NCBI RefSeq assembly: GCF_014400405.1
Contig: NZ_CP060496.1
Location: forward strand, 682,001 to 746,000
Length of the DNA: 64,000 nt
Source: Brachybacterium sp. Z12
GTDB lineage: Bacteria > Actinomycetota > Actinomycetes > Actinomycetales > Dermabacteraceae
Direction: 5' to 3'
Both the position numbers and the translations under genes were made by a program. Under the pieces are notes generated by a model. It saw only the letters and a program-made list of their open reading frames with translations, did not search any database and was not told the DNA's origin. Below, in pieces: positions 18,523 through 38,485 of this stretch (positions within the stretch are counted from its first letter, which is position 1; the number at the start of each line of letters is the position of its first letter).

Positions 18523-20042
18523 GTGAACGAGCCGTTGCTCGAAGTGCAGGGAATCTCCAAGAGCTTCCCTGGCGTCAGAGCGCTCCAGGATGTCCAGTTC
18601 CGGCTCGACGCCGGAGAGGTGCTCGTGCTCGTGGGCGAGAACGGAGCCGGGAAGTCCACCCTGATGAAGATCCTCTCCGGGATCTACCAGAAGGACGCCG
18701 GCACGATCAGGATCGACGGTCGCGAGGTCGACATCGCCGGGCCCGCCGAGGCGCAGCGACTGGGGATCAGCATCATCCATCAGGAGATGAACCTGATGCC
18801 CGACCTCACCGTCGCCCAGAACATCTTCCTGGGCCGCGAGCCCCGCCGCGGCCCGATGCTCGACGAGAGAAGGCGCTGAACCGCAACACCGCGCGGCTGC
18901 TCGCCGACCTCGGGATCCCGCTGAGCCCCCGCCGCCGGGTCTCCGACCTCACCGTCGCCGCCCAGCAGATGGTCGAGATCGCCAAGGCGCTGTCCGTCGA
19001 CGCGCGGGTGCTGATCATGGACGAACCCACCAGTGCCCTGACCGACACCGAGGTCGAGACCCTCTTCGGGCTGATCGACTCGCTGCGGGCCGCCGGCACC
19101 GGGATCGTCTACATCTCCCACCGCATGGAGGAGCTGAGGAGGCTCGCAGACCGTGTCACGGTGCTGCGTGACGGCCAGTACATCGGCAGCCTCGAGCGCT
19201 CCGAGATCGACGTCCCCACCATCATCGAGATGATGGTGGGACGCACCCTCGAGACCAGTTCCCGTCCCGAGCTGCCCGAGAACGCCTCGCACGAGGTGGT
19301 GCTGAAGGTCGAAGGGCTCAGCACCCGCAGCCTGCTCAAGGACGTCGGCTTCGAGCTGCGACGCGGGAGATCCTCGGCTTCGCCGGGCTGATGGGCGCCG
19401 GCCGCACCGAGACCGCCCGCGCCGTCATCGGCGCCGACCGCTCCACCTCCGGCACCGTCGAGGTGCACGGGAACCAGGTGCGCATCCGCCAGCCGGCCGA
19501 CGCGGTCCGCCACGGCATCGGCTACCTCTCCGAGGACCGCAAGACCCTCGGCCTGATGCTCGAGCAGTCCGTCACCGCCAACACCATCGCAGCCTCCTAC
19601 GACCGCTTCACAGGACTTCTCGGAGTGGTCAACGACCGTCGCGCGCGACGCGTCGCCGCCCAGTACGTCGAGGAGCTGCGTACCCGCACCCCGAGCGTCG
19701 ACCAGCCCGTGAAGCTGCTCTCCGGCGGCAACCAGCAGAAGGTCGTCATCGCCAAATGGCTCGTGCGTGACTGCGAGATCCTCATCGTCGACGAGCCCAC
19801 CCGAGGGATCGACGTGGGCGCGAAGGAGGAGATCTACCGCCTGCTGCAACGGCTCGCCGCCGAGGCAAGTCGATCATCATCGTCATCTCGAGCGATCTGC
19901 CCGAGGTGCTGCGCCTGTCGCACCGCATCGTGGTCATGGCCAACGGCCGCGTCCAGGGCACCTTGGACAACGAGGACGCCACCCAGAACTCGATCATGGA
20001 ACTCGCCACGCGCTTCGACGCGGGGAAGGAACCGCAGCATGA
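18523..20042 (+). CDS. Sugar ABC transporter ATP-binding protein RbsA/XylG type, four apparent frameshifts
   Basis: About 507 residues after repair, the normal size of a duplicated ribose-type (CUT2) ATPase. The first half has Walker [16 protein letters not shown]-loop [12 protein letters not shown], a diverged signature ([14 protein letters not shown]) and Walker [12 protein letters not shown]. The second half has the usual degenerate P-loop (GLMGAGRTE), signature [15 protein letters not shown] and [19 protein letters not shown]. Frame breaks near 18866, 19366, 19864 and 20023 are each explained by one lost G. After the last repair the stop TGA overlaps the ATG of the permease gene. It powers import of a monosaccharide by the following two genes. 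Confidence 0.9.
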
Positions 20043-21057
20043 GCACTCCCGAGAGCGGCGCGACCACCGCCGACGCCCCCACCCCTGCGGCCCCCGCAGC
20101 GCCGTCCACGCCCCCGCGTGGAAGGTGTGGCTGCAGCAGGGCCTGGCCTTCGGCACCCTCATCGCCCTCGTCATCTTCTTCTGGGCCGCCAGTCCGCGCT
20201 TCCTGACCTGGTCGAACATCTCCGGCATCCTGCTGGCGACGGCCGTGATCGGAATCCTCGCACTCGGCACCACCTTCGTGATCACCACCGCTGGCATCGA
20301 CCTCTCGATCGGCACCGGCATGACGCTCTGCTCGGTGATGACCGGGATCTTCGCAGTGAACCTCGGCCTGCCGATGATCGTCGCCGTGGTGCTCGGCATC
20401 CTCACCGGCGGACTGATAGGCCTGATCAACGGGCTCAACGTCGCGATATTAGGGTTACCACCCTTCATCGCGACCCTGGCGATGATGATGGTCGCCCAGG
20501 GCCTCGCCCTGGTGATCTCCGGGGTCGCCCCCATCTACTTCCACGACGTCGAGGGCTTCCAGGCGATCGCCCTGGGCAAGCTCATCCCCGGGCTGTCCAA
20601 CGCCGTGCTGATCATGTTCGTGGTCGCGGCCCTGGCCTGGTTCCTGCTGTCCAAGACGGTGCTCGGCCGCATCACCGTGGCCATCGGCTCCAACGAGGAG
20701 GCCGCACGGCTCTCAGGTATCGACGTGCGGCGCTGGAAGCTCATCATCTACGTCGTGGCCGGGCTGTTCACCGGCCTCGCCGGCGTGGTGATGGCGGCTC
20801 GCCTCGGCTCCGCCCAACCCCAGCTGGGGGTGGGTTACGAACTCCAGGCCATCGCCGCGGTGATCATCGGAGGCACCTCGCTGATGGGCGGCCGCGGCTC
20901 CATCATCGGCACGCTGATCGGGGCGCTGATCATGAGCGTCCTGATCAACGGGCTGCGCATCCTGTCCATCCAGACCGAGTGGCAGAACGTCGTCGTGGGC
21001 GTGGTGATCGCCCTCGCCGTCTTCTTCGACACCCTGCGCAACAAGCGCACCGCCTGA
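20039..21057 (+). CDS. Sugar ABC transporter permease RbsC type
   Basis: About 339 residues with around ten membrane segments. RbsC-type motifs include [43 protein letters not shown] and [19 protein letters not shown]. The start ATG overlaps the ATPase stop; a Pro/Ala/Thr-rich N-terminal tail is joined to the first helix (AWKVWLQQG) by adding one C to the C5 run 20111-20115. It forms the membrane channel of the CUT2 importer with the flanking ATPase and binding protein. The sugar is probably a pentose or similar monosaccharide. Confidence 0.9.
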
Positions 21058-21147
21058 CCCAGCGCCTCTCTCGCCGCCTGCCCGCACCGCCGCGAGCAGG
21101 CGACCACCCCCACCGCCGGGAGACCGGCATCGACGATCGGAGCAACG

Positions 21148-22112
21148 ATGAAGTTCACTCGCAGAACCGGTATGGCGGCACTGGCCGCCTCACCCCTCCT
21201 GCTCGCCCTGCCGGCGTGCAACCGCGGCGCCGGAGAGGCGGGCGCTCTCGACATCGCCCTCGTCTCGAAGGGTTTCCAGCACCAGTTCTGGCAGGCCGTC
21301 AAGAGGGGCGCGGACCAGGCGGCTGAGGAGCACGGGGTGACGATCACCTTCGACGGCCCGTCTGCCGAGACCGAGGTCGACACCCAGCTGCAGATGATGC
21401 AGGCTGCGATCGACCGCGGGCCGGACGCGATCTGTTTCGCGGCCCTGGACCCCGAGGCCTGCGTACCGCTGTACGAGGCGGCGGAGAGCGCCGGCATCCC
21501 GGTCGTCGAGTTCGATGCCGGCTGCAACAGCGATTACCCCTCGAACCTCGCCGCCACCGACAACCATGCCGCCGGTGCGCTCGCCGCCGAGCACCTCGCC
21601 GAGGCGATCGGGGAGAGGGCAAGATCGGTGTCGTCGGCCATAGCCAGATCAGCCTGACCGGCGTGGACCGCCGCGACGGCTTCGTCGACCACATGGAGGA
21701 GAACCATCCCGGTATCGAGATCGTCGACATCCAGTACGGCGACGGTGACCATCTGAAGTCCGCGGACATCGCCAAGGCGATGATCGGCGCGCACGATCTG
21801 GTCGCCCTCTACGGCACCAACGAGGGCTCGGCGATCGGGATCGTCAACGCTGTCGAGGAGCTCGGGATGTCGGGCGAGGACCTCGTGATCGTCGGCTTCG
21901 ATTCGGGGACCGCGCAGCAGGAGGCGATCCGCTCGGGACTCATGCTCGGTTCCGTCACCCAGGATCCGATCGCGATCGGCCGCCTCACCGTCGAGGCGGC
22001 GATCGCCGCAGTCAACGGCGAGGAGCTCGAGGAGTTCACCGACACCGGGTCGTACTGGTTCGATGCGGACACCATCGATGACGAGGACATCCAGGAGAAG
22101 GTCTACGACTGA
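21148..22112 (+). CDS. Ribose-type sugar-binding lipoprotein RbsB type, one apparent frameshift
   Basis: About 321 residues. An N-terminal signal with a lipobox (LALPAC) shows that it is anchored outside the membrane by the Cys. The rest is a type-I periplasmic-binding fold with IALVSKGFQHQFWQAVKRG, VEFDAGCNSDYPS and YGTNEGSAIGIVNAVEE, typical of RbsB/XylF. A break at the G4 run 21610-21613 is repaired by one G, giving GEGKIGVVGHSQ. It is the last gene of the importer operon, followed by a strong terminator. A free monosaccharide is the expected ligand; D-arabinose is my suggestion from the neighbouring GH183 and GH172 genes, not something the sequence shows. Confidence 0.9.
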
Positions 22113-22129
22113 TCCATACGTCCATACGC

Positions 22130-22168
22130 GACGGCGCCGGCAGGGAGCTCTCCCTGCCGGGCGCCGTC
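22130..22168. terminator. Strong hairpin between convergent rbsB-like and DUF4185 genes
   Basis: Nested arms GACGGCGCC/GGCGCCGTC and GGCAGGGAG/CTCCCTGCC form a stem of about 18 base pairs with one bulged G. It lies 17 bases past one stop codon and 16 bases from the other, so it can serve both transcripts. Confidence 0.75.
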
Positions 22169-22184
22169 CGTCGCATGGGGCGGG

Positions 22185-23452
22185 TCAGCCCCGTGGCTCC
22201 ATCGCCCGGCGCAGCCCTTCGACCCGGTACTGCTGCACGTGGTACGGCCAGCCCTCGCCGGTGTTCCACTGCGAGCACAGCAGGTGCAGATCATCCAGGG
22301 TCGAGCCGGGCAGCACGTAGGGGCCGTACAGCTGGGCCACGCGCTCGTCGTCCTCCTGGCCCCAGTTGCAACCCCACAGGAGCGTCTCCGCGAGGCGGGG
22401 GCTCTGGATCTCGGTGGGCGAGTCCGCGATCAGCACATCGGCCCGGTACAGGCCCGCGTTGAACCAGGTCAGCACCCAGGCGCCGTCCACGATCCGCAGG
22501 CACATCTCGCCCACCTGGCCGCCGACCACCGGGGTGGGGTCATTGCCCCAGGCCCACTGCTGGTCCTCGCCCTCGCCGGTCGCGCCCCAGGTCTCGTACG
22601 CGCCGGGATCCAGCACCGCGTCCTGCTTCACGCGCTGCAGGATGGCCTCCTTGTCGCGCTGGAAGCCGGTGGTCAGCAGGTACACGTAGCCGTCGGTGGG
22701 GTGGAGGGCCCAGGTGCACTGCTGGGAGAAGCCGTCCAGGTGGTCGCCGGCGAACATCTCCGCGGTCCGCTCCCAGGTCTCCCCGGAGTCGGTCGAGGTC
22801 CAGATCTCGGTGGAGCCGACGTTCCCGAAGCCGTGGTTGAGCATCATCCACAGGTACATGGTGTCGCCGATGGTGATCACGTCACCGGGCAGGATGGTGG
22901 AGACCGGATCGCTGTCGTGCGGGTACTCGACCAGCTCCTCGGCGGTCTCGCCGCCCACAGCGCTGATCCACTCCAGGCCGTGTTTGAGCTTGCGCTTCGG
23001 ATCGGCGTAGAGGCCGACGGGGAGCGCCACCAGCTGTCGCCCACGGCGGGCTCCTCGAAGGTGTCGCCGAAGATCACCAGGATCCGTCCGTCGGGCGTGA
23101 CGGCAGGTGCGCCCAGATCGGTGGCATCCATCCGGAAGCGGGTGGTGATGCCGGGGCCGGTGACCGTCGCCAGGCGGGTGATCTCCGGGCGGTGGTAGTC
23201 CGGGTTGGGGTCGACGCCGCGGCCCACGCCACGGCCGGGACGACCCTTGCCGCCGGCGGGTGCGGCCTGGGCCGAGACGCCTGTGGCGAGCGCGGCCCCC
23301 AGGGCGCCGGCGCCCAGGGCGAGAGCGCCGCCGTGCAGGAATCCCGAACGGGAGACGTCGGCATCGACATCAGTCGGGGTGGCGGGGGAGGGGTGGTCGG
23401 AACGGGGTTCGTCGGGCGCATCGGAGTCTCCATCGGCTGTGGTGCGGGTCAC
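22185..23452 (-). CDS. DUF4185 protein, candidate GH183 endo-D-arabinanase
   Basis: About 422 residues. After a hydrophilic N-terminal region comes a Tat-like signal (VSRSGFLHGGALALGAG, cleavage near VSAQAAP; the Arg pair is degenerate), so the protein is exported. The body has the repeated strands of a DUF4185 beta-propeller: TDLGAPAVTPDGRILVIFGDTF, VGLYADPKRKLKHGLEW, STEIWTSTDSGETWERT, MCLRIVDGAWVLTWFN and QLYGPYVLPGSTLDDLHLL. DUF4185 is the basis of CAZy family GH183, endo-D-arabinanases that cut mycobacterial arabinogalactan and lipoarabinomannan. One missing base in the run 23019-23022 breaks the frame. The GTG start at 23452 lies 42 bases from a LacI-type operator. Family placement is probable; activity is inferred. 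Confidence 0.78.
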
Positions 23453-23491
23453 GACATTGCGGTCCCACAGTAAGCACGAGACGGGCCGGTC

Positions 23492-23505
23492 GGCAATCGT
23501 TTACT
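23492..23505. promoter_or_regulatory. LacI-type operator upstream of the DUF4185 gene
   Basis: GCAATCGTTTAC closely matches the operator GTAATCGTTTAC at 33522. It lies 42 bases upstream of the DUF4185 start. Next to it the 13-mer CGACGCAATGGAG occurs in inverted orientation and recurs near 23712 on the other side of the divergent region. Confidence 0.55.
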
Positions 23506-23658
23506 GACGCTCCATTGCGTCGAAGGCGCGTCTACCCGGCGGTCGGCAAGCCAGTTTCCTCCGGGCGCATCAAACAACAATCCAGGTCAGAGCGCGTTCG
23601 GCGGCGCGCGTTCCGGCCGCCACCTCTGCGACACCCGTCAACGACTTCTCGATAGGGG

Positions 23659-23687
23659 TTTACCAGGCCCCTCATCTCGCCTACGGT
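23659..23687 (+). promoter_or_regulatory. Candidate promoter of transporter operon A
   Basis: TTTACC, a 17-base spacer and TACGGT, some 47 bases before the GTG start. The LacI-type site at 23700 lies just downstream of the -10 element. Confidence 0.4.
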
Positions 23688-23699
23688 GGGCCCGCGATG

Positions 23700-23714
23700 A
23701 GAAATCGATTATCG
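23700..23714. promoter_or_regulatory. LacI-type operator of transporter operon A
   Basis: GAAATCGATTATCG contains the perfectly palindromic core AATCGATT of LacI-family operators. It lies between the candidate -10 element and the first gene of the operon, a repressing position. Confidence 0.5.
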
Positions 23715-23733
23715 ACGCAATGGAGTGCCGATC

Positions 23734-24778
23734 GTGAGCGACCCGAGCTATTCCCAGGGCGAAGCGCCCACCGAGCCCGCTAGGGCTCGGGCCGTTCTCG
23801 GCCAGGACCCTGCGAAGTCGGTCGAGGGCAGCGGCCGCGGGCGCTTCCGGTGAGACCAAGACGGCTGCTCCGTTCGGGCGCCGGCTGCTGACCGCGATCC
23901 GTCACCACCCCTGGATGTACGCCTTCATCCTGCCGGGGCTGATCTTCTTCGTCCTGTTCCACTACGTGCCGCTGCTGGGCAATGTGATCGCGTTCCAGGA
24001 CTACTCCCCGTACCTCGGGGTCACCGGCTCGCGCTGGGTGGGACTGCAGAACTTCACCTCGATCATTCGGGACCCGGAGATCCTGAACGCGATCACCAAC
24101 ACGCTGATCATCTCGTTCTTGCAGCTCGCCTTCGCCTTCCCGGCGCCGATCGCGCTGGCGATCTTCCTCAACTCCCTGCTCTCGGAGCGGCTCAAGCGCT
24201 GGATCCAGACCATCGTCTATCTGCCGCACTTCCTCAGCTGGGTGATCGTCATCGCGCTGTGGCAGCAGGTGCTCGGCGGCGCCGGCTCCCTGGCCAACGG
24301 CCTGTCCCTGCTGGGCATCGAGAACGTCAACCTGATGAGCGACCCCTCGTTCTTCAAGGTGCTGGTGGTGCTCCAGGTGGTCTGGAAGGACGTCGGCTGG
24401 GGGACCATCATCTTCTTCGCCGCGATCTCCACCATCTCCGCCGAGCTCTACGAATCCGCTGCGGTGGACGGTGCCGGCTCCTGGCGCCGCATCTGGCACG
24501 TGACCCTGCCCGGCCTGCTGCCGGTGACGGTGATGCTGCTGATCCTGCAGCTGGGCAGCGTGCTCACCGTCGGCTTCGAACAGCTGCTGCTGCAGCAGCC
24601 CGCCGTCGGCGCCGGAGCCGCGCAGGTGATCGACACCTTCGTGTACTTCCGCGGCATCGCCGGCGGTGACTGGGGAGTCTCCACCGCGGTGGGGCTGATC
24701 AAGGGCGTGGTCGGCACGGTGATGGTGCTCGGCGCCAACCGGCTCGCCAAGCGACTGGGAACGGACGGACTGTTCTGA
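23734..24778 (+). CDS. ABC transporter permease, LplB type (importer A)
   Basis: About 348 residues if the N-terminal tail is included. It has six membrane segments, starting WMYAFILPGLIFFVLFHYVPL, and the EAA loop YESAAVDGAGSWRRIWHVTLPG that contacts the ATPase. This LplB-type subfamily carries oligosaccharides. The GTG start at 23734 has GGAG nine bases upstream; the frame from it (SDPSYSQGEAPTEP) does not join the membrane part directly, and two lost bases or one extra base before 23870 must be assumed. The stop shares one base with the next start (TGATG). No ATPase is encoded here, so a shared MsmK-like ATPase is needed. Confidence 0.85.
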
Positions 24779-25660
24779 TGGCTGCCTCACGTGCTCCGTG
24801 GATGGAGAAGCCCAGCCCGCTGGTGCGGGCCGCGAAGATGCTCGCGATCGCGATCATCGTGACGCTGATGCTCTACCCCTTCGCGTACGTCATCCTCGCC
24901 TCGGTCACCCCGCCGGGGAGACGCTGCGCTTCGGGTTGATCCCCACCGACTGGACGCTGGACGCCTACCGCTCCGTGCTGGCCGGCCGGATCATCCCCCG
25001 CGCGCTGATGGTCTCGATCGGGATCACCTTCGTGGGAACCGTGCTGTCGGTCGCTTTCACCACCACGCTCGCCTTCGGGCTCACCCGCACCAAGGACATC
25101 CCCGGCTCCAAGGGCGTGCTGTACGTGGTGCTGTTCACGATGCTGTTCGGTGCCGGGCTGATCCCCAACTTCATCCTGGTCAAGGAGCTGGGACTGCTGA
25201 ACTCCTACTGGTCGCTGATCCTGCCCGGCCTGATCAGCGCCTTCAACATGCTGGTGGTGCGGAACTTCTTCATGCAGATCCCGGCCGAGCTCACCGACTC
25301 CGCCCGCATCGATGGTGCGAGCGACGGCCAGGTGTTCCTCCGGATCATGCTGCCGCTGTCCAAGGCGGTGATCGCCGTGATCGCCCTGTTCTACGCCGTG
25401 GGCTACTGGAACGCGTTCTTCAACGCCCTGATCTACATCCAGGACACCTCGAAGTGGCCGATCCAGCTGGTCCTGAACACCTACGCGGTGCAGGGCTCGC
25501 CGATCAGCAACATCGAGAACCCCAACGCCGCCGGCTCGGTGACCCCGCAGGCCATCCAGATGGCGATCGTGGTGCTGGCCACCCTGCCGATCCTGTGCGT
25601 CTACCCCTTCGCCCAGCGCTTCTTCACCAAGGGGTGCTCACCGGCGCGATCAAGGGCTGA
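24778..25660 (+). CDS. ABC transporter permease, YtcP type (importer A), two apparent frameshifts
   Basis: About 294 residues. It is the second permease of an LplB/YtcP pair: first helix AIIVTLMLYPFAYVILASVTPP, then TDWTLDAYRSVLAG, six helices in all, the EAA loop DSARIDGASDGQVFLRIMLPL and the C-terminal QRFFTKGVLTGAIKG typical of this group. Breaks at G4 runs 24915-24918 and 25631-25634 are each repaired by one G; the second restores the conserved end. It partners the permease upstream and the lipoprotein downstream. Confidence 0.88.
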
Positions 25661-25708
25661 GCGCCTCGGCCCGAACCATTCAGCAGGCACCGTCTCAAGG
25701 AGGAGACC

Positions 25709-27354
25709 ATGTCCCATCGCTTCACCCGCCGATCCCTGATGGCCGCGGGCGGCATCGCCCCGCTCGCCGCCCTCGCCGCATGTTCGGGCGAGACGCCCGG
25801 AAGCGGCGTCGCCATCGACAACGCCACCGGCCTCGAGCTGCCGAACCACACCCCGCCGCCCGAGGTCGACGGCGCGATCATCTCCGACGTGGAGGGGTGC
25901 CGCCCGGCTACGAGAAGCTCCCCGCCGAGCTGATCAGGACCGTCGACGCCCCGCCGGGAGACGGCGGTGTCCTCACCGAGTTCAAGATCAGCTGGGATGC
26001 CCCCGCGCCGCCGCTCGCGGAGAACATGTTCTGGCAGTCCTACAACGAGACCCTCAACGTCGACTACCAGCCGCAGATCGCCCCGGCCGGGAACTACGAC
26101 GAGCGCCTGGCCACCCTGTTGGCCGGCGGCGATCTGCCCGACATCGTGCAGCTGCTGGACACCGCGCAGTCCGCCCGCGCGATCCGTGACGGGGCGTTCG
26201 CGGATCTCAGCCCGCTGCTGGCCGGCGACGCGATCGACGAATGGCCTAACCTCGCCAACATCCGCGAGGACCAGTGGCGCTACGTCGCCTACGACGGCAA
26301 GATCGTCGGCTTCCCGATCGACCTGCCCGCCTACAACAACGAGTTCCGCTACCGCCAGGATTGGGCGGAGGAGAACGGCTACCCGGATCCGCCCGCGGAT
26401 GCCGAGGAGTTCAAGGAGCTGTTCGCCTCCTTCTCCAAGATGGGCGTCGACGGCCGCTACGGCCTGGCGGACGCCCCGGGCACCGCGATGATCGCGGCCA
26501 ACGCCATGTTCCATGTGCCGATCGGCTGGCGCTACGAGAACGGCTCCCTCACCTATCACCAGGAGACCGAGGAGTTCGCGGCGGCGGTGCAGTTCATGAC
26601 CGAGCTGTGGGAGGAGGGAGCCTTCCACCCCGACGCCCTGTCGCTGGACGCGAACGTCGGTCAGACCCTCTCGATGATCCCCGCCGGGACGGTGGGCATC
26701 TCCTGGATCGCGACCGCGAACTGGTTCAACCCCGGGGTGTACTACGACGCGCTGCAGGAGTCTCCGGACAGCTGGGCCCCGTTCGTCCCGCCCCACCACG
26801 AGGGCGACGGTGCGGGCCTGTTCGGCCGTTCCACCGGGGTCTTCGCCCGAGTGGGGATCTCCTCGCAGGCCGCCGAGGACGAGGAGAGGCTGAAGATGCT
26901 GCTGGACTACTGCAACTACCTGCGCGCCCCCTTCGGCAGCGAGGAGCACTACTTCCTGCATCACGGCGCCGAGGGCGACTACTTCACGCGCAGCGGCGGA
27001 GGGGAGCCGACGCCGGTGGAGGGCACCAGCTTCCAGCCCGAGGCCGCGCAGCTCACCTACGGCCTGGCCCCGGTGGTCTACGACTTCGCCGGGGCGCAGG
27101 ACGCGATCACCATCAACGAGCAGTACGTGAACAACTCGGAGATGGACCCCTGCGCGGGACTGTTCTCCGATGCGGCCACCCGTGCGCAGCCGCAGCTGGA
27201 CGAGCTGTTCGAGAGCTACGTCAACCAGATCATCGTCGGCAACCGGCCGCTGACCGATCTGGAGGTCTACCTCGAGCAGTGGCGCTCCCGCGGCGGCGAC
27301 GACATGCGCACGGAGTTCGAGGAGGCGCTCAAGGCCCGCGAGAACGGGGAATGA
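25709..27354 (+). CDS. Extracellular solute-binding lipoprotein (importer A)
   Basis: About 548 residues, long as in LipO/LplA-type binding proteins for oligosaccharides. RFTRRSLMAAGG is a Tat-like signal and LAALAAC a lipobox. Motifs of the family-1 binding fold include YDERLATLLAGGDLPDIVQLLD and YDGKIVGFPIDLPAYNNEFRYRQDW. A strong AAGGAGGAG precedes the ATG. One G missing from the run 25894-25897 breaks the frame near residue 62. The stop overlaps the start of the GH172 gene (ATGA), tying substrate capture to hydrolysis. The ligand is probably a short furanoside oligomer. Confidence 0.88.
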
Positions 27355-28511: not shown

Positions 28512-28529
28512 CCCGCCCCGAGGAGACCC

Positions 28530-29407: not shown

Positions 29408-29438
29408 GGTGGGCGTACGACGATCGAGGAGGCCCGTC

Positions 29439-29654
29439 ATGAGCACGAAATTCGCCGTCGGTGACCATGTCAGCTGGAACTCCGAGGCCGGGCGCGTCTC
29501 GGGCACCATCACCGAGGTCCATACCCGCGACTTCGACTACAAAGGACACACGCGCCGCGCGAGCGAGGACGAGCCCCAGTACGAGATCGCCAGCGACAAG
29601 ACCGATCACGTCGCCGCGCACAAGGGCTCGGCCCTGAGGAAGCTCTCGAGCTGA
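29439..29654 (+). CDS. DUF2945 (HVA1/Tudor-like) small protein
   Basis: 71 residues: a short beta-rich domain with VGDHVSWNSEAGRVSGTITEVH, then DEPQYEIASDKTDHVAAHKGSALRKL, which matches the DUF2945/hypervirulence-associated family. GAGGAGG lies ahead of the ATG. It sits alone between the two sugar operons and has no evident link to them. The biochemical role of the family is unknown. Confidence 0.8.
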   Translation: MSTKFAVGDHVSWNSEAGRVSGTITEVHTRDFDYKGHTRRASEDEPQYEIASDKTDHVAAHKGSALRKLSS

Positions 29655-29707
29655 CGAACCCGGGGAAACCCGCGCGGGGAGCGCCATCTCCCGGCACACT
29701 GTCAGTC

Positions 29708-30115
29708 ATGGACGACCATCCGCAGCTCCGCTTCGCCTGGCGCGAGGAGATCATCGATCAGGAGGTCTCCGCGCTGCACGCGGCGGCCTTCGGCGGCGAT
29801 GGCCAGGTCGAGCCGTGGGCAGAGCGTCTCGACCGCTACTCCCTCGGCTGGGTCACGGCCCGCCGTGGTGAGGAGCTGATCGGGTTCTGCAACGTCATCA
29901 CCGACGGCGGGCGGCACGCCTTCCTGCTCGACGTGGTCGTCCATCCGGGCCACCAGGGCACCGGCATCGGCCGCTCGCTGGTGCTGCACGCGATCGAGGA
30001 GTGCCGGTCCTGCCGGGTCGAGTGGCTCCATGTCGACTTCGAGGCCGACCTCGGCGACTTCTACATGGCCGACGGGCTCTTCCGGCGCACCACCGCCGGG
30101 ATCCTGAGGCTCTGA
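29708..30115 (+). CDS. GNAT family N-acetyltransferase
   Basis: 135 residues. The acetyl-CoA-binding motif A appears as LDVVVHPGHQGTGIGRSLV, with Gln-Gly-Thr-Gly-Ile-Gly matching Q/RxxGxG. The fold continues to DFYMADGLFRR. The acceptor substrate cannot be deduced. It ends 13 bases from the convergent permease gene. Confidence 0.87.
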   Translation: MDDHPQLRFAWREEIIDQEVSALHAAAFGGDGQVEPWAERLDRYSLGWVTARRGEELIGFCNVITDGGRHAFLLDVVVHPGHQGTGIGRSLVLHAIEECRSCRVEWLHVDFEADLGDFYMADGLFRRTTAGILRL

Positions 30116-30128
30116 GCCCATCGTCCTC

Positions 30129-31047
30129 TCACTTCAGGCCAGCCATCTTGATGTTCGCGATGATCTGACGCTGGAAGATGAGGAAGATGATGATGATCGG
30201 CAGCGCCGCGCAGGCGGAGCCTGCCATCAGCAGCCCCAGTTCCGATGAGCGCTCGCCGCGGAACGCTGCCAGGTACTGCTGCACCTGGTACAGCTCAGGG
30301 CTGGTGATGGTCATGACCGGCCAGACGAAGTTGTTCCAGTAGGCCATGAAGCTGGTGATCCCCACACAACCACGAAGGGCGCCTTCGACAGCGGCAGGAA
30401 GATCCGCAGGTACACGCCCCACCTTCCGCAGCCGTCCATCACCGCGGCCTCTTCGAGGCTCGAGGGGATGTTCAGATAGAACTGGCGCACGAAGAAGATG
30501 TGCCCGGCTGCAGCCAACCCTGGGATGATCAGCACCGCGAGGGTGTCGAGCATGCGCAGGTTGGTGACCACGATGAAGCTGGTGAGCAGGATCGTCATTC
30601 CGGGGATGAACATCGTCATCAGCACCAACGGCCATACGAAGCGTTTACCTGCGAACTCGAGACGTGCGAAGGCATAGGCCGCCATTGAGTTCACGGCGAT
30701 CGAGCCGACGGTGAACACCACTGCGCCTCCGCCGGTGATCATCAGCGTTCGCAGGAACGCCGTGTCCGCGAGGATCTGTGCGTAGTTCTGCCACTGCCAG
30801 ACCTCGGGGAAGAACTGGAACGGGGTGGAGACCACCTCGGTGCGGATCTTGAATCCGGAGATGATCATCCACGCCAGCGGGAACAGCGCCATGAACACGA
30901 TCAGCACGCTGAAGAACGCCTTGACCACGAGGCCCAAGAGCGTGCGCGGGTGCAGGAACCGGCGTCGGCGGGCTCGGCGCCGCAGTCCGGAGGCGTGCCC
31001 GGAGCTGCCGAGGGGGTGTGGGGGCGGGGGTCGGTGAGCACAGTCAT
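30129..31047 (-). CDS. ABC sugar permease, MalG/UgpE type (importer B), two apparent frameshifts
   Basis: About 306 residues. It is a CUT1 inner-membrane component with six helices (AFFSVLIVFMALFPLAWMIISG, GGGAVVFTVGSIAVNSMAAYAF), the EAA loop EEAAVMDGCGRWGVYLRIFLPL and the C-terminal FLIFQRQIIANIKMAGLK typical of MalG-like proteins. The basic N-terminal region joins the first helix once one base is added near 30993; a second break lies near 30365. The ATG at 31047 is one base from the upstream permease stop, so they are coupled. No ATPase gene accompanies it. Confidence 0.88.
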
Positions 31048-31048
31048 C

Positions 31049-32031
31049 TCAGTCCACCAGCTTCTCGGAGTTGACGATGCGGAAGATGACCGAGGAGATC
31101 GAGCCCAGCACCACGAACAGCAGCAATGCAGCGGCGATCGAATAGCCCACGTATGCGTCGCCGCGGAAGTGGTTGAAGATGAAGAGGTTCGGCAGTTCGG
31201 TGGCCCCGTTCGGGCCGCCACCGGTCATCACCAGGGGCAGCTCGTACTGCTGGATGGAGCCGACGAACCCGGTGACCAGCAGGAACAGGATCACGTTCTT
31301 CATCTGCGGGATGGTGATGAAACGGGTCCGCTGCCACCAGTTCGCACCTTCCAGCTGCGCCGCCTCGTAGAGACTCTCGGGGATGTCGAGCATCGCCGCG
31401 ATCATGATCAGGGTGGTGATGCCCATCCCCAGCCAGACCGCAGGCACCGCGATCGCCGCGAGCGCCCAGCGCGGATCGCCCAGCCACGCCTGGTTGGGTG
31501 CTCCGAAGACGTTGACCAGCGCGTTGAGCAGGCCGCCGGAGTAGTCGTAGATGATCACGAACGTGATCGAGGCGATGACACCCGAGATCACCGAGGGGAT
31601 GTAGATGCTGACCTTCAGCACTGAGGAGATCCACTGGGAGACAGTGGTCGCCAGGGTCGCGACGAGGAAGGAGAGGACCAAGCTGACGGGCACGGTCATC
31701 AGCACGAACTGCAGGCCCCGCACCACCGCCTCCCAGAAGCTGGGGTCGATGAGCACGTTGCGGAAGTTCTTCCAGCCCACGAACTCCGACTCGACATAGA
31801 AGCTCCAGTCGAAGAAGCTCAGGTATACGGCCTGGATCGCAGGCCAGATGACGAAGATACTCAGCAGCACGAGCACCGGCGCCAGCATGATGTACGCCAT
31901 GCCGGTGTCCCGGCGCCTGCTGGGGTGCACGGTGCGGCGGCGGCGTTGTTTCGCCGCGACGGCGACCCCGAGCATCCCATCGGTGCTGGGACCCCGGAGC
32001 CGCCGGTGGTGCCGGAGGTGTTGATGGCCAT
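31049..32031 (-). CDS. ABC sugar permease, MalF/UgpA type (importer B), one apparent frameshift
   Basis: About 327 residues. The first helix is AYIMLAPVLVLLSIFVIWPAIQAVYLSFFDWS, with WKNFRNVLIDPSFWEAVVRGL before the second, and the EAA loop reads LYEAAQLEGANWWQRTRFITIPQ. It pairs with the MalG-type permease. AAGGAGAGGG precedes the ATG at 32031, and one base missing from the run 31992-31995 separates the N-terminal 15 residues from the rest. The subfamily suggests di- or oligosaccharide import. Confidence 0.88.
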
Positions 32032-32057
32032 CCCTCTCCTTCCTTGTCGCGTCCGGC

Positions 32058-33410
32058 TCAGGCGTCCATCTCGGCACGGACCTGGGCCAGTCCCTCGCGA
32101 TCGATCACCTTCTGGATCTCGGCGTTCGCATCAGACAGGGCCTCGGCAGGGCTCTTCTCGCCGAGCATGCCGGCCTGGAGCGCGTCACCCATCGCCACGT
32201 TGACGTCCCAGGGATACTGCGCCTCGGGGATGCAGAAGGGGACCACATCGTTGAAGACCACGTCGGACCACGGCGCATCTGCGGCTGCAGGATCGGAGTT
32301 GACCACCTCGGTCACCTCGTCACGGGCAGGAGCCTTGGTGAACTGGGTGTCGGCGAAGAAGGGCGTGAGCACCTCCGGCTTCCCGCCGATGGCCCAGCTG
32401 ATGAACTTCGCCGCAGCCTCGGGCTCCTTCGCCTTGGCATCGACCACCCACTTCATGTTGCCGATGGTGGAGATCGAGTGCGACATATCGCCGTCGGACT
32501 GCACCCACGGCGCCACCCCGGCCACCGAGACCATGTCGGGGTAGTCGGCGGCGATCTCGGACATGCCCCAGGAGCCCTGGGACATCATCGCGACCTTGCC
32601 CTCGCCGAAGGCCTGGGCGGAGTTGCCTTCTCCCAGCGGCTGGCGGGGATCCAGGCGTTGTCCTGGAGAGTCTTGTAGAAGTTGATGAGCTCCTCGTACT
32701 TGGCGTCCTCGGCATCCGCGGAGGTCCAGTCGTCCGAGATCGGCAGGTGGCCGGCGACGTGCTGCTGCGCAGCCACGGTGGTCCAGCCGAAGGTGCCGGA
32801 GTCCACCGCGGTGTTGAGGGCGAACTCGCCGTTGCCCATCACTCCGGCCAGAGCCTCGCAGGCGTCGTACATCTGGTCCCAGGAGGCCGGGGGCGTGTCC
32901 GGGTCCAGGCCAGCCTGTTCGAACAGGTCCCGGTTCCAGTAGAGCATCATCTGCGGCTCGACCAGCAGTGGGAAGGCGTAGAACTGGCCCTGGTACTGGG
33001 AGACCTCCTTCGCGATGTCCGTGACCGAGGCGAGCACGTCCGCCTCGAACAGGTCGTCCAGCGCCAGCAGGGTGCCGGTGCGGGCGGCGGTGTCCAGGCG
33101 GCCGGCCTGGATGTACACGTCGGGGCGGTGCCCGCAGCCTGCGCAGCCTTGAGCTTCTGGTCCCAGGCGTCGCCGGGGACCACCTGGTAGTTGATGAAGA
33201 CCTCGTCCTGGGCGGCGTTGAAGTCCTCGACGATCTTCTCGTACCAGGCGTTCTCCGGGGTGGTGAAGACGTTGCCCCAGAACTCGACCGTGGTGCGGCC
33301 CGCGGCCGCCGGGTCGTCGGCCTTCTGGCCGGGGTGCCGCTGCCGCAGGCTGCGAGTCCGGCCACGCCGGCGGTGGCGGCGGCTGCGGAAAGAAAACCTC
33401 TGCGCTTCAT
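32058..33410 (-). CDS. Extracellular sugar-binding lipoprotein (importer B), three apparent frameshifts
   Basis: About 451 residues. MKRRGFLSAAAATAG with a twin-Arg-like start and the lipobox LAAC give a lipid-anchored exported protein; the fold is a CUT1 family-1 binding protein (VEFWGNVFTTPENAWYEKIVEDFN, FYAFPLLVEPQMMLYWNRDLFEQAGLD, FGEGKVAMMSQGSWGM). Three breaks, near 32626, 33122 and 33331, are each repaired by one base. The ATG at 33410 has GAGGAG upstream; an earlier ATG at 33428 is less well placed. The gene starts operon B minus and is read from a promoter with a LacI operator. Confidence 0.88.
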   Translation of the reverse strand: MKRRGFLSAAAATAGVAGLAACGSGTPARRPTTRRPRAAPRSSSGATSSPPRRTPGTRRSSRTSTPPRTRSSSTTRWSPATPGTRSSRLRRLRAPPRRVHPGRPPGHRRPHRHPAGAGRPVRGGRARLGHGHREGGLPVPGPVLRLPTAGRAADDALLEPGPVRTGWPGPGHAPGLLGPDVRRLRGSGRSDGQRRVRPQHRGGLRHLRLDHRGCAAARRRPPADLGRLDLRGCRGRQVRGAHQLLQDSPGQRLDPRQPLGEGNSAQAFGEGKVAMMSQGSWGMSEIAADYPDMVSVAGVAPWVQSDGDMSHSISTIGNMKWVVDAKAKEPEAAAKFISWAIGGKPEVLTPFFADTQFTKAPARDEVTEVVNSDPAAADAPWSDVVFNDVVPFCIPEAQYPWDVNVAMGDALQAGMLGEKSPAEALSDANAEIQKVIDREGLAQVRAEMDA

Positions 33411-33521
33411 GGTGCTGCTCCTCGTCATCGGGGATCTAGCGGTGGGTGGAGATCGAGCTGTCGATGTGACTGCGCGTGCTGCTCAGAGCGATCGGGGTCG
33501 GCACTTCGATGTGTCAACCTG

Positions 33522-33622: not shown

Positions 33623-33667
33623 TTGACGCACCAGAGCGCCTTCCGTATGGTCTCAGTAATCGTTTCC
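33623..33667 (+). promoter_or_regulatory. Promoter and LacI operator of the GH172-B operon
   Basis: TTGACG (33623-33628), a 17-base spacer and TATGGT (33646-33651), then GTAATCGTTTCC at 33656-33667, again five bases after the -10. The layout is the same as on the divergent promoter, so one regulator probably controls both. Confidence 0.65.
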
Positions 33668-33728
33668 CCACCGTCGCTCCGCGACGCGAGAACGAATCGA
33701 CGCTGATCCGACTCCAGGGAGTGCTTCC

Positions 33729-34865
33729 GTGAACCGTTCTGCCAGCTCGTCCCATGCCCTTTCTCCGCTCTCGCGTCTGCGCCCCGTGCAGACCCGCTCC
33801 ATCAGCCCCGAGAACTTCGACGGCTCCGTCGCTGGAGGCGGTCGCGCCACCGAGGGCACCGGCGCAGAGCCCGCCCGCCCGCGACCTCGGCCAGGGATGG
33901 AAGGTCTCGCCCAGCGTCGATGTGAAGGCGGGGAGACCTTCACCCTCGCCGACATCGACTCCGCCGGCGTGATCACCCACATCTGGATCACCACGCACAC
34001 CGACCACTGGCGCCAGCTGGTGCTGCGCGCCTACTGGGACGGGGCTGAGGAGCCCGCCGTGGAGGTGCCCTACGGGGATTTCTTCGCCAACGGCTGGGGG
34101 AAGTTTGCACAGGTCGACTCTCAGATGATCGCCTCGAACCCGCATGGCGGCTTCAACTCCTACTGGCCGATGCCGTTCCGTGAGGGTGCCCGCCTCACGG
34201 TCGAGAACACCTCCGACCAGGACGCGCGGGTCTACTACCAGGTGACCTACGAGCTCGGAGGGGACCACAGCGAGGACGCCTACTTCCATGCGCAGTGGCG
34301 CCGCTCGAACCCGCTGGACGAGGCCACCCCGCACGTGCTCGTCGACGGCATCGAGGGCCAGGGCCATTACGTCGGCACCTATATCGCCTGGGGTGTGAAC
34401 TCCAACGGTTGGTGGGGCGAGGGCGAGATCAAGTTCTACCTGGACGACGACACAGAATTCCCCACCATCGCGGGCACCGGCACCGAGGACTACTTCGGCG
34501 GGGCCTGGAACTTCGACGTCCCCGGCGAGGGGTACACCGCCTTCTCCACCCCGTACCTGGGGATGCCGCAGGTGATCCGGCCCGACGGGCTGTACCTCTC
34601 CCAGCAGCGCTTCGGGATGTACCGCTGGCACGTGACCGACCCGATCCATTTCAGCACCGGCCTGCCCCGCGTCGACATCCAGGCGCTCGGCTGGAAGAGC
34701 GCCTGGCGCTACCTGCCGCTGCGCGACGACATCGCCTCCACCGCGATCTTCTACCTCGACCGTCCCGTCACCAGCCGGCCGGAGTCCCCGAGCTTCGATT
34801 CGATGGAGATCCACCTGGGCGCCGGGGCAGGACCGCACAGCCCCGCCGGTCCCGCACGCCACTGA
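33729..34865 (+). CDS. DUF2961/GH172 glycoside hydrolase B, two apparent frame breaks
   Basis: About 380 residues. GH172 blocks are complete: TRSISPENFDG, EGTGAEPA, DLGQGWKVSPSVDVKAGETF, AGVITHIWITTHT, YWDGAEEPAVEVPYGDFFANG, FNSYWPMPF, GQGHYVGTYIAWG, FPTIAGTGTEDYFGGAWNF and YLGMPQVIRPDG. No signal peptide is present. The GTG start has GGGAG at eight bases. One break at the G4 run 33930-33933 is a lost G; the other, within a GCCC repeat near 33880, shifts the other way and could be a four-base repeat change. It heads the operon with the isomerase, LacI and AKR genes. D-arabinofuranoside or fructofuranoside hydrolysis is expected. Confidence 0.87.
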   Translation: MNRSASSSHALSPLSRLRPVQTRSISPENFDGSVAGGGRATEGTGAEPARPRPRPGMEGLAQRRCEGGETFTLADIDSAGVITHIWITTHTDHWRQLVLRAYWDGAEEPAVEVPYGDFFANGWGKFAQVDSQMIASNPHGGFNSYWPMPFREGARLTVENTSDQDARVYYQVTYELGGDHSEDAYFHAQWRRSNPLDEATPHVLVDGIEGQGHYVGTYIAWGVNSNGWWGEGEIKFYLDDDTEFPTIAGTGTEDYFGGAWNFDVPGEGYTAFSTPYLGMPQVIRPDGLYLSQQRFGMYRWHVTDPIHFSTGLPRVDIQALGWKSAWRYLPLRDDIASTAIFYLDRPVTSRPESPSFDSMEIHLGAGAGPHSPAGPARH

Positions 34866-34883
34866 TCCACGAAGGGAACACCC

Positions 34884-36533
34884 ATGACCGTCACGTACCA
34901 GCTGCCCCAAGTCCGCCAAGAGCTCCCTGCGCCGGAGAAGACCGTCTACCTCATCCCCAGCGGTGACCTGCGCGAGAGCGCGAACGTCCCGGCCTGGCCG
35001 TACCAGCAGGAGCTCGAGCGGATCGTCGGCGACGCCGTCGGCGCGACCGGCTGGAGCGTGCAGCGCGCCTTCGAGGAGGATCCCGAGCTCGGGCACGGCT
35101 TCATCCGCTCCCAGCGCATGGGCATCGAGGTGTTCAAGGAGATCCCGCCCGAAGCGCCGCTGATCGTGGCCACCGCGAACTGGCAGTACAGCCACCACGT
35201 GCTCGCCGGTCTGCGCACCCATCGCGGGCCGATCCTCACGATCGCGAACTTCGCCCCCGAGTGGCCGGGCCTGGTGGGCCTGCTGAACCTCAACGGCGGG
35301 CTGACAAAGATGAACCGCGCGTACTCCTCGCTGTGGACCGTCGACGGCACCGATTCCTGGTTCCGCGACGGGATCTCCACCTGGATCGAGTCCGGCACGG
35401 TCGAGCACGACGCGAGCCATGTGCGCGCCCTGCCCGCCCTGCCCAGCACCTCCGAGGTCGAGCTCGGCCGGGCGCTCGCCGATCAGCTCATGGGGGACAA
35501 GGCCATCATCGGCATCTTCGACGAGGGCTGCATGGGCATGTACAACGCGATCATCGACGACGAGATGCTCAACCCGCTGGGCATCTACAAGGAGCGGCTG
35601 AGCCAGTCCGCGCTGTGGGCGGAGATGCAGACCGTCCCCGACGAGGAGGCCGACGCGATCGGTGCCTGGCTGCGGAACGCCGGGATGACGTTCAAGCTCG
35701 GCACCGACGAGGCCACCGAGCTCACCGAGGCCCAGCTGCGCTGGCAGCACAAGATGTACATCGCCGCGCTGCGGATCAGCGACGACTACGGCCTGGATGC
35801 GGTGGGCATCCAGTACCAGCAGGGGCTCAAGGATGTGTGCCCGGCCTCCGACCTGGTCGAGGGCCTGCTGAACAACGTGCAGCGGCCCCCGGTGACCAGC
35901 CGAGACGGCTCCCGCGTGCTGTGGGACGGTGAGGCGCTGCCGAACTTCAACGAGGTCGACGAGGGGGTCGCGGTCGACGCCCTGGTCACCAATCGGATCT
36001 GGAACGCGATGGGCATGGACCCCGCCACCACCCTGCACGACGTGCGCTGGGGCGAGGAGTACCAAGATCAGTACGTGTGGGTCTACGAGATCTCCGGCTC
36101 CGTCCCGCCCAGCCACTTCCCGAACGGCTACACCGACGCCGAGGGGTGGCGCCAGGGCCCGGAGTTCTTCCCGGCCGGCGGCTCCACGATCAACGGCGTC
36201 TCCAAGCCGGGCGAGATCGTCTGGTCGCGCGTCTACGTCGAGAACGACGCCCTTCACGTGGACCTGGGCCGCGGCAGCGTCGTCGAGCTGCCCGAGGAGG
36301 AGACCCGTCGGCGCAAGGAGGCCACCAACCCCGAGTGGCCGATCGCGCATGTGGTGCTGCACGGCGTGAGCCGTGACCAGTTCATGGGCAGGCACAAGGC
36401 CAACCATGCCCAGCTCGTCTACGCTGACGACTCCGACGCCGCCGATCGTGCGCTGACCGCGAAGGCCGCGCTGTTCCAGCGCCTCGGGGTGAGCGTCCAC
36501 CTCTGCGGCGATGCAGTGATCGTCGGATCCTGA
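34884..36533 (+). CDS. L-fucose/D-arabinose isomerase-like protein
   Basis: 549 residues, intact. The size and layout fit the FucI/AraA-like sugar isomerase group: IFDEGCMGMYNAIIDDEMLNP in the middle holds candidate metal-binding Glu and Asp, and MGRHKANHAQLVYAD near the C-terminus a candidate metal-binding His. L-fucose isomerases also convert D-arabinose to D-ribulose, which would suit the product of D-arabinan breakdown by the GH172 gene immediately upstream (18 bases). I cannot confirm the subgroup without alignment; some relatives have no assigned activity. It is probably cytoplasmic. Confidence 0.6.
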   Translation: MTVTYQLPQVRQELPAPEKTVYLIPSGDLRESANVPAWPYQQELERIVGDAVGATGWSVQRAFEEDPELGHGFIRSQRMGIEVFKEIPPEAPLIVATANWQYSHHVLAGLRTHRGPILTIANFAPEWPGLVGLLNLNGGLTKMNRAYSSLWTVDGTDSWFRDGISTWIESGTVEHDASHVRALPALPSTSEVELGRALADQLMGDKAIIGIFDEGCMGMYNAIIDDEMLNPLGIYKERLSQSALWAEMQTVPDEEADAIGAWLRNAGMTFKLGTDEATELTEAQLRWQHKMYIAALRISDDYGLDAVGIQYQQGLKDVCPASDLVEGLLNNVQRPPVTSRDGSRVLWDGEALPNFNEVDEGVAVDALVTNRIWNAMGMDPATTLHDVRWGEEYQDQYVWVYEISGSVPPSHFPNGYTDAEGWRQGPEFFPAGGSTINGVSKPGEIVWSRVYVENDALHVDLGRGSVVELPEEETRRRKEATNPEWPIAHVVLHGVSRDQFMGRHKANHAQLVYADDSDAADRALTAKAALFQRLGVSVHLCGDAVIVGS

Positions 36534-36570
36534 GCGGCGCAGGCCGGCAGAGCGGAACGAGGAGCAGCCC

Positions 36571-37569
36571 ATGGTGTCACCACGGCCCACGATCATGGAC
36601 GTCGCGCGCACCGCGGGCGTCTCCTCGGCGACCGTATCCCGGGTCATCAACGGTGCGACCACCGTCGACAAGGAGCTCTCCAAGCGGGTGCAGGCGGCGG
36701 TCCGGGCGACGGGCTACGTGCCCAACGCCCTGGGCCGCTCCCTGCGCCGCGGCGGGACCTCCCAGATCGCGGTGGTCGCGCCGGATGCGGAGAACCCGTA
36801 CTTCACCCAGATCATCGGCGAGGTGGAGAGGATCGCCCGCGACCAGAGCCACTCGGTGACGGTCGCGCACACCGAGGACGATCTCGCCGTCGAGCAGGAG
36901 TGCTTCGCACAGCTGGTCAGCCGCCACGTCTCGGGCGTGCTGCTGGTGCCGGTGGACGGCATGCGCACCGATCTGGGACCGCTGACCGATGCCGGCATCC
37001 CGGTGGTGCTGGTGGACCGCGGCATCGATGGAGCACACACTGACGTGGTCGCCACCGACAACCACGATGCGGGGCGGCAGGCCGCCCGTCACCTGCATGA
37101 ACGGGGCTTCCGCGCCCCGGCGGTGATCGCCGGCTCGCAGACCCTGCGCACCACCGAGGACCGCGCCACAGGGTTCCTCGGTGCCTGGCGCGAGCTCGGG
37201 GTCGAGGTCGGGGCCGACGCCCTCCAGCGCGGCGACCTGCACCTCGAGTCCGGCCGCACGGTGATGGAGCAGCTGCTGGCAGCGGGCGAGGCGGACTGCG
37301 TCTACGTCACCAACAACCGGATGTCCGCCGGGGCGTTCGAGGCGATCCGCGGGGTCGAGGGGGCGCCTGCGCTGCTCGCCACCGATGACGACCTGTGGAC
37401 CAGGCTGGTCACCCCGTCTGTCTCCGTGGTCCACCAGGCGGTGCGCGCCACCAGCCGCGCCGCGGCCCGCATGCTCACCCAGCGGATGGCCAACCCCGAC
37501 GAGGAACCCTCGACCACGCTGCTGCGCTCGCGGATCATCGAACGAGATTCGACACAACCGAAGGGCTGA
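36571..37569 (+). CDS. LacI-family regulator of the sugar island
   Basis: 332 residues. The N-terminal helix-turn-helix is clear: PTIMDVARTAGVSSATVSRVING, then the hinge ATGYVPNALGRSLRRG, and the effector domain (VAPDAENPYFTQIIGEVE, GVLLVPVDGMRTD, VVLVDRGIDGAHTD, TNNRMSAGAFEAI). The recognition helix is of the classical type that binds operators centred on CG, which fits the GTAATCGTTTAC sites at 23.5, 33.5 and 33.66 kb. GAGGAG precedes the ATG. It lies in the GH172-B operon and most likely represses operons A and B; the inducer is probably a sugar released from the polymer. Confidence 0.92.
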   Translation: MVSPRPTIMDVARTAGVSSATVSRVINGATTVDKELSKRVQAAVRATGYVPNALGRSLRRGGTSQIAVVAPDAENPYFTQIIGEVERIARDQSHSVTVAHTEDDLAVEQECFAQLVSRHVSGVLLVPVDGMRTDLGPLTDAGIPVVLVDRGIDGAHTDVVATDNHDAGRQAARHLHERGFRAPAVIAGSQTLRTTEDRATGFLGAWRELGVEVGADALQRGDLHLESGRTVMEQLLAAGEADCVYVTNNRMSAGAFEAIRGVEGAPALLATDDDLWTRLVTPSVSVVHQAVRATSRAAARMLTQRMANPDEEPSTTLLRSRIIERDSTQPKG

Positions 37570-37600
37570 CTCCCGTCCCGTTCAGGCATACGCTTACCGC

Positions 37601-38485
37601 ATGACTGCTCCCACCCGCCGTATCGGCTCCCTGACCGTCTCCGCCCTGGGCCTGGGCGCCATGCCGCTGTCGATGGGGCGCGGCGAGCCCGCCCCGCATG
37701 ACCGTGCGATGGCCACCGTCCACGCCGCCCTCGACGCGGGGATCACCCTCCTCGACACCGCCGACATCTACGCCCCCAGCTGGGACACCATGGGCCACAA
37801 CGAGCAGCTCGTCGGCGAGGCGCTGCGCAGCTGGGGCGGCGACCGCTCCCAGATCGTGCTCGCCACCAAGGGCGGCATCACCCGCTCCGCCGAAGGCGGA
37901 GGCCGCGACGGCTCCGCCGCCTATCTCCGCTCCGCGCTCGAGAAGTCCCTCACGGCGCTCGGCACCGATTCCGTGGACCTCTACTACTGGCACCGCCCGG
38001 ACCGCAGCATCCGCTACGCCGACGCGGTCGAGGTGCTCGCCGCCTTCCAGCAGGAGGGGCTGATCCGTGAGGTCGGCATCTCCAACGCGAACGTCGAGGA
38101 GATCGACGTGGCCCGTGAGGTGCTCGGGGACGGCGGGCTCGCCGCGGTGCAGAACGAGTTCTCGCCGACCTTCTTCCACACCAGCCGCCGCGAGCTCGAG
38201 CACTGCGGCGAGCACGGCATCGCCTTCGTCCCGTGGTCGCCGCTGGGCGGCACCGGCGGCGGCGCCGCCGCAGTGGGGGAGCGGTTCCCGCAGATCCAGC
38301 GCATTGCCGAGGCGCATGCGGTCAGCCCCCAGCAGGTGGTCCTGGCGTGGGAGCTCGCACTGGGCGAGCACGTGATCCCGATCCCGGGCGCGAGCCGCCC
38401 CGAGTCGATCACCGACTCCGCGCAGGCGATGTCGCTCCAGCTCAGCGACGTGGACCTCGCCGAGCTGAACCAGATCATCGTCTGA
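37601..38485 (+). CDS. Aldo/keto reductase
   Basis: 294 residues. The TIM-barrel AKR tetrad is visible: LLDTADIYA (Asp and Tyr), LATKGGI (Lys) and YYWHRPD (His), with IPIPGASRPESI for NADP binding near the C-terminus. It follows the LacI gene by 31 bases and probably belongs to the same operon, where it may reduce or oxidise a pentose. The substrate is not shown by the sequence. Confidence 0.88.
   Translation: MTAPTRRIGSLTVSALGLGAMPLSMGRGEPAPHDRAMATVHAALDAGITLLDTADIYAPSWDTMGHNEQLVGEALRSWGGDRSQIVLATKGGITRSAEGGGRDGSAAYLRSALEKSLTALGTDSVDLYYWHRPDRSIRYADAVEVLAAFQQEGLIREVGISNANVEEIDVAREVLGDGGLAAVQNEFSPTFFHTSRRELEHCGEHGIAFVPWSPLGGTGGGAAAVGERFPQIQRIAEAHAVSPQQVVLAWELALGEHVIPIPGASRPESITDSAQAMSLQLSDVDLAELNQIIV

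Follow-up and report, generated by a model that had tools for sequence, protein, structure and literature searches.

In the cell walls of mycobacteria, D-arabinan is an unusual sugar polymer; its synthesis is the target of ethambutol (PMC10509167), and the enzymes that cut it became, in 2023, tools for mapping those walls. Three described gene clusters, for which we draw on part of each published account, come closest to the one analysed here. The polysaccharide utilization locus (PUL) of Microbacterium arabinogalactanolyticum encodes EndoMA1, EndoMA2, ExoMA1 and ExoMA2 (PMC10509167); PUL42 of Dysgonomonas gadei, a Bacteroidota locus, combines GH183, GH172 and a predicted fucose isomerase (PMC10115798) with a putative GH116 (PMC10509167); and the alphaFFase1 operon of Bifidobacterium dentium brings together LacI, an ATP-binding cassette (ABC) importer, GH172 and a GH32-type gene (PMC8605356). 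Here we analyse a window of 64,000 nucleotides from Brachybacterium sp. Z12 (C1:682001-746000, on the single 3.51-Mb contig of a genome of 85.7% completeness), which contains an island of 16 genes that is very probably a Brachybacterium D-arabinan utilization locus. The literature searched yielded nothing that joins D-arabinan with Brachybacterium.

Compared by way of related Microbacterium loci, the island shares with the M. arabinogalactanolyticum PUL an exported GH183, a signal-less GH172, an ABC importer and an isomerase. The same D-arabinan route has already been proposed for the Microbacterium locus, and in a locus of this type D-arabinose and mycobacterial wall extract induce the genes for GH183, GH116, GH172 and binding proteins (PMC10509167). 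Unlike that PUL, the window genome has no GH116 and no kinase was found in the island, which holds a GH43/GH32-like hydrolase (GH32L hereafter), a second GH172 with Ala at position 253, a ribose-type importer and a further importer, A. The D. gadei locus shares the GH183, the GH172 and the isomerase with the island; unlike the island, no ABC importer is mentioned for it in the part of the account covered (PMC10115798). Likewise, the covered account of the B. dentium operon makes no mention of GH183, and there the GH172 has Gly299, E85 and K147 and the GH32 bears the annotation of a putative beta-fructofuranosidase (PMC8605356). A preliminary description of this DNA was aware of no described counterpart to the layout, whereas such loci were published in 2023 (PMC10509167); the island appears to depart from the described Microbacterium kind in that the known GH116 is missing and GH32L may stand in its place.

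The families, the Asp pair of GH183, the Glu motifs of GH172, the kinship of one GH172 (GH172_2) with ExoMA1 and the gene order are read from sequence, and from these we infer substrates, transport steps, protein location in the cell and regulation. Pfam places DUF4185 (PF13810, GH183) at 22188-23369 on the minus strand (6.6e-53; 180 bits against a cut-off of 39.5), within a gene at 22185-23452 that is split into two frames by a frameshift near 23030; relatives carry longer open frames. The exported DUF4185 protein first described at this place thus keeps its family and loses its single reading frame, and its N-terminal piece (22880-23452, minus strand) still matches DUF4185 at 4.4e-10. In a motif comparison on window piece L001, made at the level of sequence and not of structure, the Asp pair in TDLG...FGDT shows the spacing of 18 that separates D33 and D51, the catalytic Asp residues of EndoMA1 (PMC10509167). 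The protein is a putative endo-D-arabinanase, and GH183 is present in 17 of the 38 Brachybacterium genomes that make up our genus set.

Both GH172 genes carry DUF2961 (PF11175), at 27351-28508 (+; 8.5e-88) for GH172_1 and at 33729-34862 (+; 1.7e-87) for GH172_2. The best PDB match of GH172_2 (33729-34865, +), on which no signal was seen, is 8ic8_A (678 bits, 2.9e-203), the structure of the exo-alpha-D-arabinofuranosidase ExoMA1. Asn253, the residue by which ExoMA1 blocks fructofuranose (PMC10509167), is retained; GH172_2 looks like an ExoMA1 orthologue and is a putative exo-alpha-D-arabinofuranosidase. Directly downstream, a fucose-isomerase-like gene (34884-36533, +; PF02952) encodes a putative D-arabinose isomerase, which shares 65-89% identity with five isomerases of other loci (one from the same genus) and 24% with Escherichia coli FucI; its Fucose_iso_C match (34884-36530; 8.8e-08) reaches 32.3 bits, barely above the cut-off of 29.3. 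From the at least 589 confirmed relatives of GH172_2, the best 80 were kept as named loci (L numbers, here and below, denote loci), and in these, isomerase and GH172 are grouped in Microbacterium, Sanguibacter, Cryobacterium and others, many also with GH116 and an FGGY kinase. Loci with isomerase and GH172 in Microbacterium, Sanguibacter and others also have an importer of the B type (46-67%) and a LacI-type gene (about 35%), and most of them GH116 and a kinase as well. Furthermore, the island set is found again in similar order in the genus, which excludes its chance assembly.

Pfam and the relatives thus bear out the gene set given in the preliminary description (DUF4185, two DUF2961, importers, an isomerase-like protein, LacI and an aldo-keto reductase (AKR)), with PF13810 and PF11175 both above cut-off, and the use of D-arabinan that it proposed is well supported by the GH183 Asp spacing, the closeness of GH172_2 to ExoMA1 and the isomerase identities. 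In the route that we favour, the exported GH183 would cut mycobacterial-type D-arabinan outside the cell, and oligosaccharides would enter through ABC importers, most likely B, with A serving a subset of strains. GH172_2 would then remove alpha-D-arabinofuranose inside the cell, and a second furanosidase step, by GH32L and by GH172_1 where present, would complete branched or beta-capped ends. The isomerase would turn D-arabinose into D-ribulose for phosphorylation by a kinase encoded elsewhere, and the ribose-type importer would probably take up free pentose. The way onward from D-ribulose needs a kinase, and none was found in the island. Elsewhere in this genome, at C1:3.315 Mb, a gene matched in pieces (61% over 187 residues, 70% over 83) is likely orthologous to the kinase found in other loci of this type, which speaks for the assignment. 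In a relative, a ribokinase-like gene, judged by its leading residues, stands beside the ribose-type importer (L200:6401-7429).

Several observations weigh against this assignment. The GH183 belongs to a subtype (TDLGAPAVTPDGR...) for which no close solved relative was found, its best PDB match scoring 81 bits. The Glu of a GEMCLR motif lies in the second window piece; equating it with Glu243 of EndoMA1 is a guess, as only 26 of the 60 listed DUF4185-like frames carry the conserved GEMCLR Glu, about 200 residues past the first Asp. For the isomerase, a PDB search gave no match at E<=0.1. When aligned with FucI, whose metal ligands are presumably E337, D361 and H528, only the His is matched, and Asp361 falls in a gap. 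Finally, importer A and GH172_1 occur in some strains only.

The gene list of the preliminary description was incomplete, as it lacked GH32L at 28530-29407 (+). This protein exceeds the cut-offs of two Pfam families, PF04616 (GH43; 53.6 bits against 32.2) and PF00251 (GH32N; 51.5 against 22.1), and in the relative at L100 GH43 (71.1 bits) ranks above GH32N (52 bits). The curated GH32 subfamily cut-offs are missed by the L100 protein (BfrA, 27 bits against 900; scrB, 23 against 356), and every model in an NCBIfam search of GH32L fell far under its cut-off. A profile search of the PDB matched both GH32 and GH43, in local alignments, with Asp30 outside the alignments shown. Eighteen aligned GH32L sequences conserve Asn29-Asp30-His31, Arg145-Asp146-Pro147, Thr203-Glu204-Ser205, His252 and Glu255; the acidic residues among these resemble those of GH32/GH43 enzymes, and Asp30 and Glu204 are taken by us to correspond to the GH32 NDPN and EC motifs. 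No signal peptide was seen on GH32L in the window or elsewhere in the genus, where calls were made by eye on genes with uncertain start sites. At L195-L197, in three large genomes of actinobacteria, GH32L has a signal-like start and its C-terminal tail is of a repeat type; within about 10 kb of these genes, none of the other island genes was found.

In the genus set, GH32L and the isomerase each occur in 19 of the 38 genomes and coincide in 18; G428 has GH32L without the isomerase and G417 the isomerase without GH32L. All 17 genomes with GH183 carry GH32L. GH116, the family to which the known exo-beta-D-arabinofuranosidase belongs (PF04685, a model that detects the GH116 of locus L024 at 150 bits) is absent from 37 of the 38 genomes and has no match in the genome of the window. 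A second set, of the 38 genomes behind 38 of the best 80 loci, overlaps the first by coordinates (L014 is G418, L028 is G424) and contains GH116 in 24 genomes and GH32L in 5. At 17 loci GH116 shares a stretch with isomerase and GH172 (L015-L027, L029, L034, L037 and L043; the isomerase of L021 is cut by a contig end), and none of the 17 genomes has GH32L, while Brachybacterium L014 and L028 have GH32L and no GH116. GH32L is sparse in the wider class, with 4 of 394 sampled genomes positive including that of the window, and a plasmid search gave a single weak Deinococcus match.

A further link comes from Nakamurella, in which two genomes encode DUF2961 and a GH32L domain in one protein with a signal-like start (L220:6097-11046 and L221:5916-10904; 1650 and 1663 residues), behind an RbsABC-type importer. 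By eye, the GH172 domain of the fusion has a Tyr after GTGTED...W, so that a large residue occupies the specificity position. The ribose-type importer also adjoins GH32L in the genus loci L225 and L228. Fusion and neighbourhood together link GH32L with an alpha-furanosidase family and with a pentose-type importer. The beta-links of D-arabinan lie at its non-reducing side and, as far as the account covered goes, are removed in Microbacterium by the GH116 ExoMA2 (PMC10509167). Since a signal-less furanosidase accompanies GH183 where GH116 is missing, GH32L is a fair candidate for the beta-step, as an exo-beta-D-arabinofuranosidase, and we tentatively suggest, as a possibility that stops short of the probable, that it is a new beta-D-arabinofuranosidase and potential stand-in for the missing GH116. 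If so, it would be a second, unrelated enzyme for beta-linked D-arabinan caps and a new addition to the tools, and an uncharacterized branch of the GH43/GH32 superfamily would gain a function. The literature searched, in which most subscription papers and CAZy were not covered, contained no GH43/GH32-type beta-D-arabinofuranosidase.

This proposal faces counterexamples. One genome of the genus, G413, contains three copies of GH116 at a great distance from the island, and both GH116 and GH32L are present in Streptomyces L061 and Nakamurella L035 and L036. Neither is present in ten genomes that do have isomerase and GH172 (Streptomyces L047-L050, L059, L081, L083 and L084, Promicromonospora L030 and Actinotalea L031). 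Neither kinship nor linkage is taken into account in the Fisher values for co-occurrence in the genus (1e-8 to 9e-8). In the isomerase tree, all genus rows form one clade (100/100), so the exchange of GH116 for GH32L amounts to about one evolutionary event; the rows include L003, from the genome of the window, and L028, from a genome with GH32L, and the genus label also covers G417, without GH32L.

The strongest alternative, which we rate as rather unlikely, is that the substrate of GH32L is a different part of the same wall polymers, galactofuranose or a cap sugar, in place of beta-D-arabinofuranose. The preference of L100 for GH43 (71 against 52 bits) fits such a role, given that galactan is hydrolysed jointly by two enzymes, one of them a GH43_31, in the account covered (PMC10115798), and a known beta-enzyme is not always present, as eight of nine Streptomyces genomes together with Promicromonospora and Actinotalea have isomerase and GH172 without GH116 or GH32L. 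Against it, a GH32L with no signal peptide seen in the genus would meet imported arabinan pieces, and within the genus it occurs where GH116 is missing.

GH172_1 (27351-28511, +), with no signal seen, is nearest among solved structures to ExoMA1 (8ic8; 389 bits, against 113 for alphaFFase1) and keeps the WWGEGE and GTGTED Glu motifs. At ExoMA1 position 253 it has Ala, so the Asn that marks an alpha-D-arabinofuranosidase is lacking and the preliminary description, which gave both GH172s the same job, is not supported on this point. Asn is not obligatory in GH172, as 8ah3 carries Cys. In 106 distinct GH172 frames recognized by motif in the fetched loci, some of them overlapping copies of one gene, the specificity position is Asn in 90, Ala in 10 (every one of them a GH172_1), Asp in 3, Cys in 2 and Gly in 1. 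The genus set has 38 GH172 matches in 22 of its genomes, with five matches left unclassified (G412, G426, G409 and two in G413); GH172_1 was recognized in 7 genomes, always with Ala, and immediately precedes GH32L in 6 of them, the ribose-type importer lying in between in G409. In G404 the gene is broken into two frames. GH172_1 likely has a wider subsite -1, and were GH32L a beta-D-arabinofuranosidase, GH172_1 would be its partner with the wider subsite. As the genus has GH172 enzymes of both kinds, with Asn or with Ala at this position, it lends itself to a natural comparison. Further GH172 genes with Asp there lie on contigs other than that of the island in G426 (L167) and G404 (L169), and an Anaerolineaceae metagenome-assembled genome (L060:8860-11050) has tandem GH172 genes, one with Cys and one with Asn.

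It is doubtful, in our view, that importer A, GH172_1 and GH32L form a separate alpha/beta-fructofuranoside module, for difructose anhydride or inulobiose use, inside the D-arabinan island. The B. dentium operon, in the account covered, holds the same gene types (PMC8605356), the Ala of GH172_1 in its seven genomes stands where alphaFFase1 has Gly299, and GH32L scores on GH32N as well as on GH43. The much closer match of GH172_1 to ExoMA1 than to alphaFFase1 opposes this, as do the GH32 equivalog cut-offs, far above the GH32L scores. In the alignment of GH172_1 with alphaFFase1, the E85 stretch is unaligned and K147 falls within an insertion, which speaks against inulobiose as substrate; both residues are needed for inulobiose and not for p-nitrophenyl alpha-D-arabinofuranoside (PMC8605356). 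Furthermore, of the 19 genus genomes that carry GH32L, 12 yielded no GH172_1, whereas all 17 with GH183 have GH32L. That the natural substrate is another D-arabinan, of pilin or lipopolysaccharide glycans, and not that of mycobacterial or corynebacterial walls is very unlikely: some GH183 enzymes do cut pilin oligosaccharides of P. aeruginosa PA7 (PMC10115798), but genes of a related Microbacterium locus are induced by mycobacterial wall extract (PMC10509167).

The importers A (23735-27354), B (30130-33411) and ribose-type (18523-22113) all have counterparts in other Brachybacterium genomes. The ribose-type importer, on the plus strand, consists of an RbsA-like ATPase (18523-20041; located by tblastn from the relative L200 and read in four pieces with frameshifts), an RbsC-like permease (20039-21057; 62-63% to L200) and an RbsB-like binding protein (21148-22113; frameshift near 21600), the first piece of which has matches to RhaS, RbsB and others that are all under cut-off. 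Importer A, on the same strand, has permeases at 23735-24778 (PF00528; 86-87% in L224 and L225) and 24779-25663 (98% to L224 over 24909-25637) and a solute-binding lipoprotein, SBP-A, at 25710-27354 (PF01547; frameshift near 25900). Importer B, on the minus strand, comprises permease 2 (30130-31048; 89-100% to L206; frameshift near 30365), permease 1 (31049-32040; 82% to L206, 46-67% in 17 loci from other actinobacterial genera and about 30% in others) and the solute-binding protein SBP-B (32058-33411; PF13416 and PF01547; frameshifts). The LacI-type regulator (36571-37569, +; PF00356 and PF00532) is 62-94% identical in loci of the genus and 32-40% elsewhere.

Relative to their homologues, at least 6 of the 16 island genes are frameshifted (18523-33467): those for RbsA, RbsB, GH183, SBP-A, one importer B permease and SBP-B. 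The beginnings of the genes for RbsC, for permease 2 of importer A and for GH32L were likewise seen by eye in a different frame, with a shift near 28580 for GH32L. These breaks are probably assembly indel errors, the likeliest cause because this one-contig genome has only 85.7% completeness. Pseudogenes are not favoured, as the frames of relatives match across the breaks and so many genes are affected.

The AKR had been counted as part of the island and stands near LacI in several relatives; in L205 the two are set apart by other genes, which look urease-like from their leading residues, so it is probably a mere neighbour, and we dropped it as a pathway enzyme. In Brachybacterium sp. EE-P12, LacI and AKR are separated by a GH35-type gene (L014:14669-18142) whose 1158-aa product begins like an exported protein; the window has no such gene at that place. 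Upstream of the island, 14726-17581 holds a GH3 (+) and a major facilitator superfamily (MFS) transporter (-), and GH3-like and MFS-like genes, judged by leading residues, also flank the island in L200 and L229.

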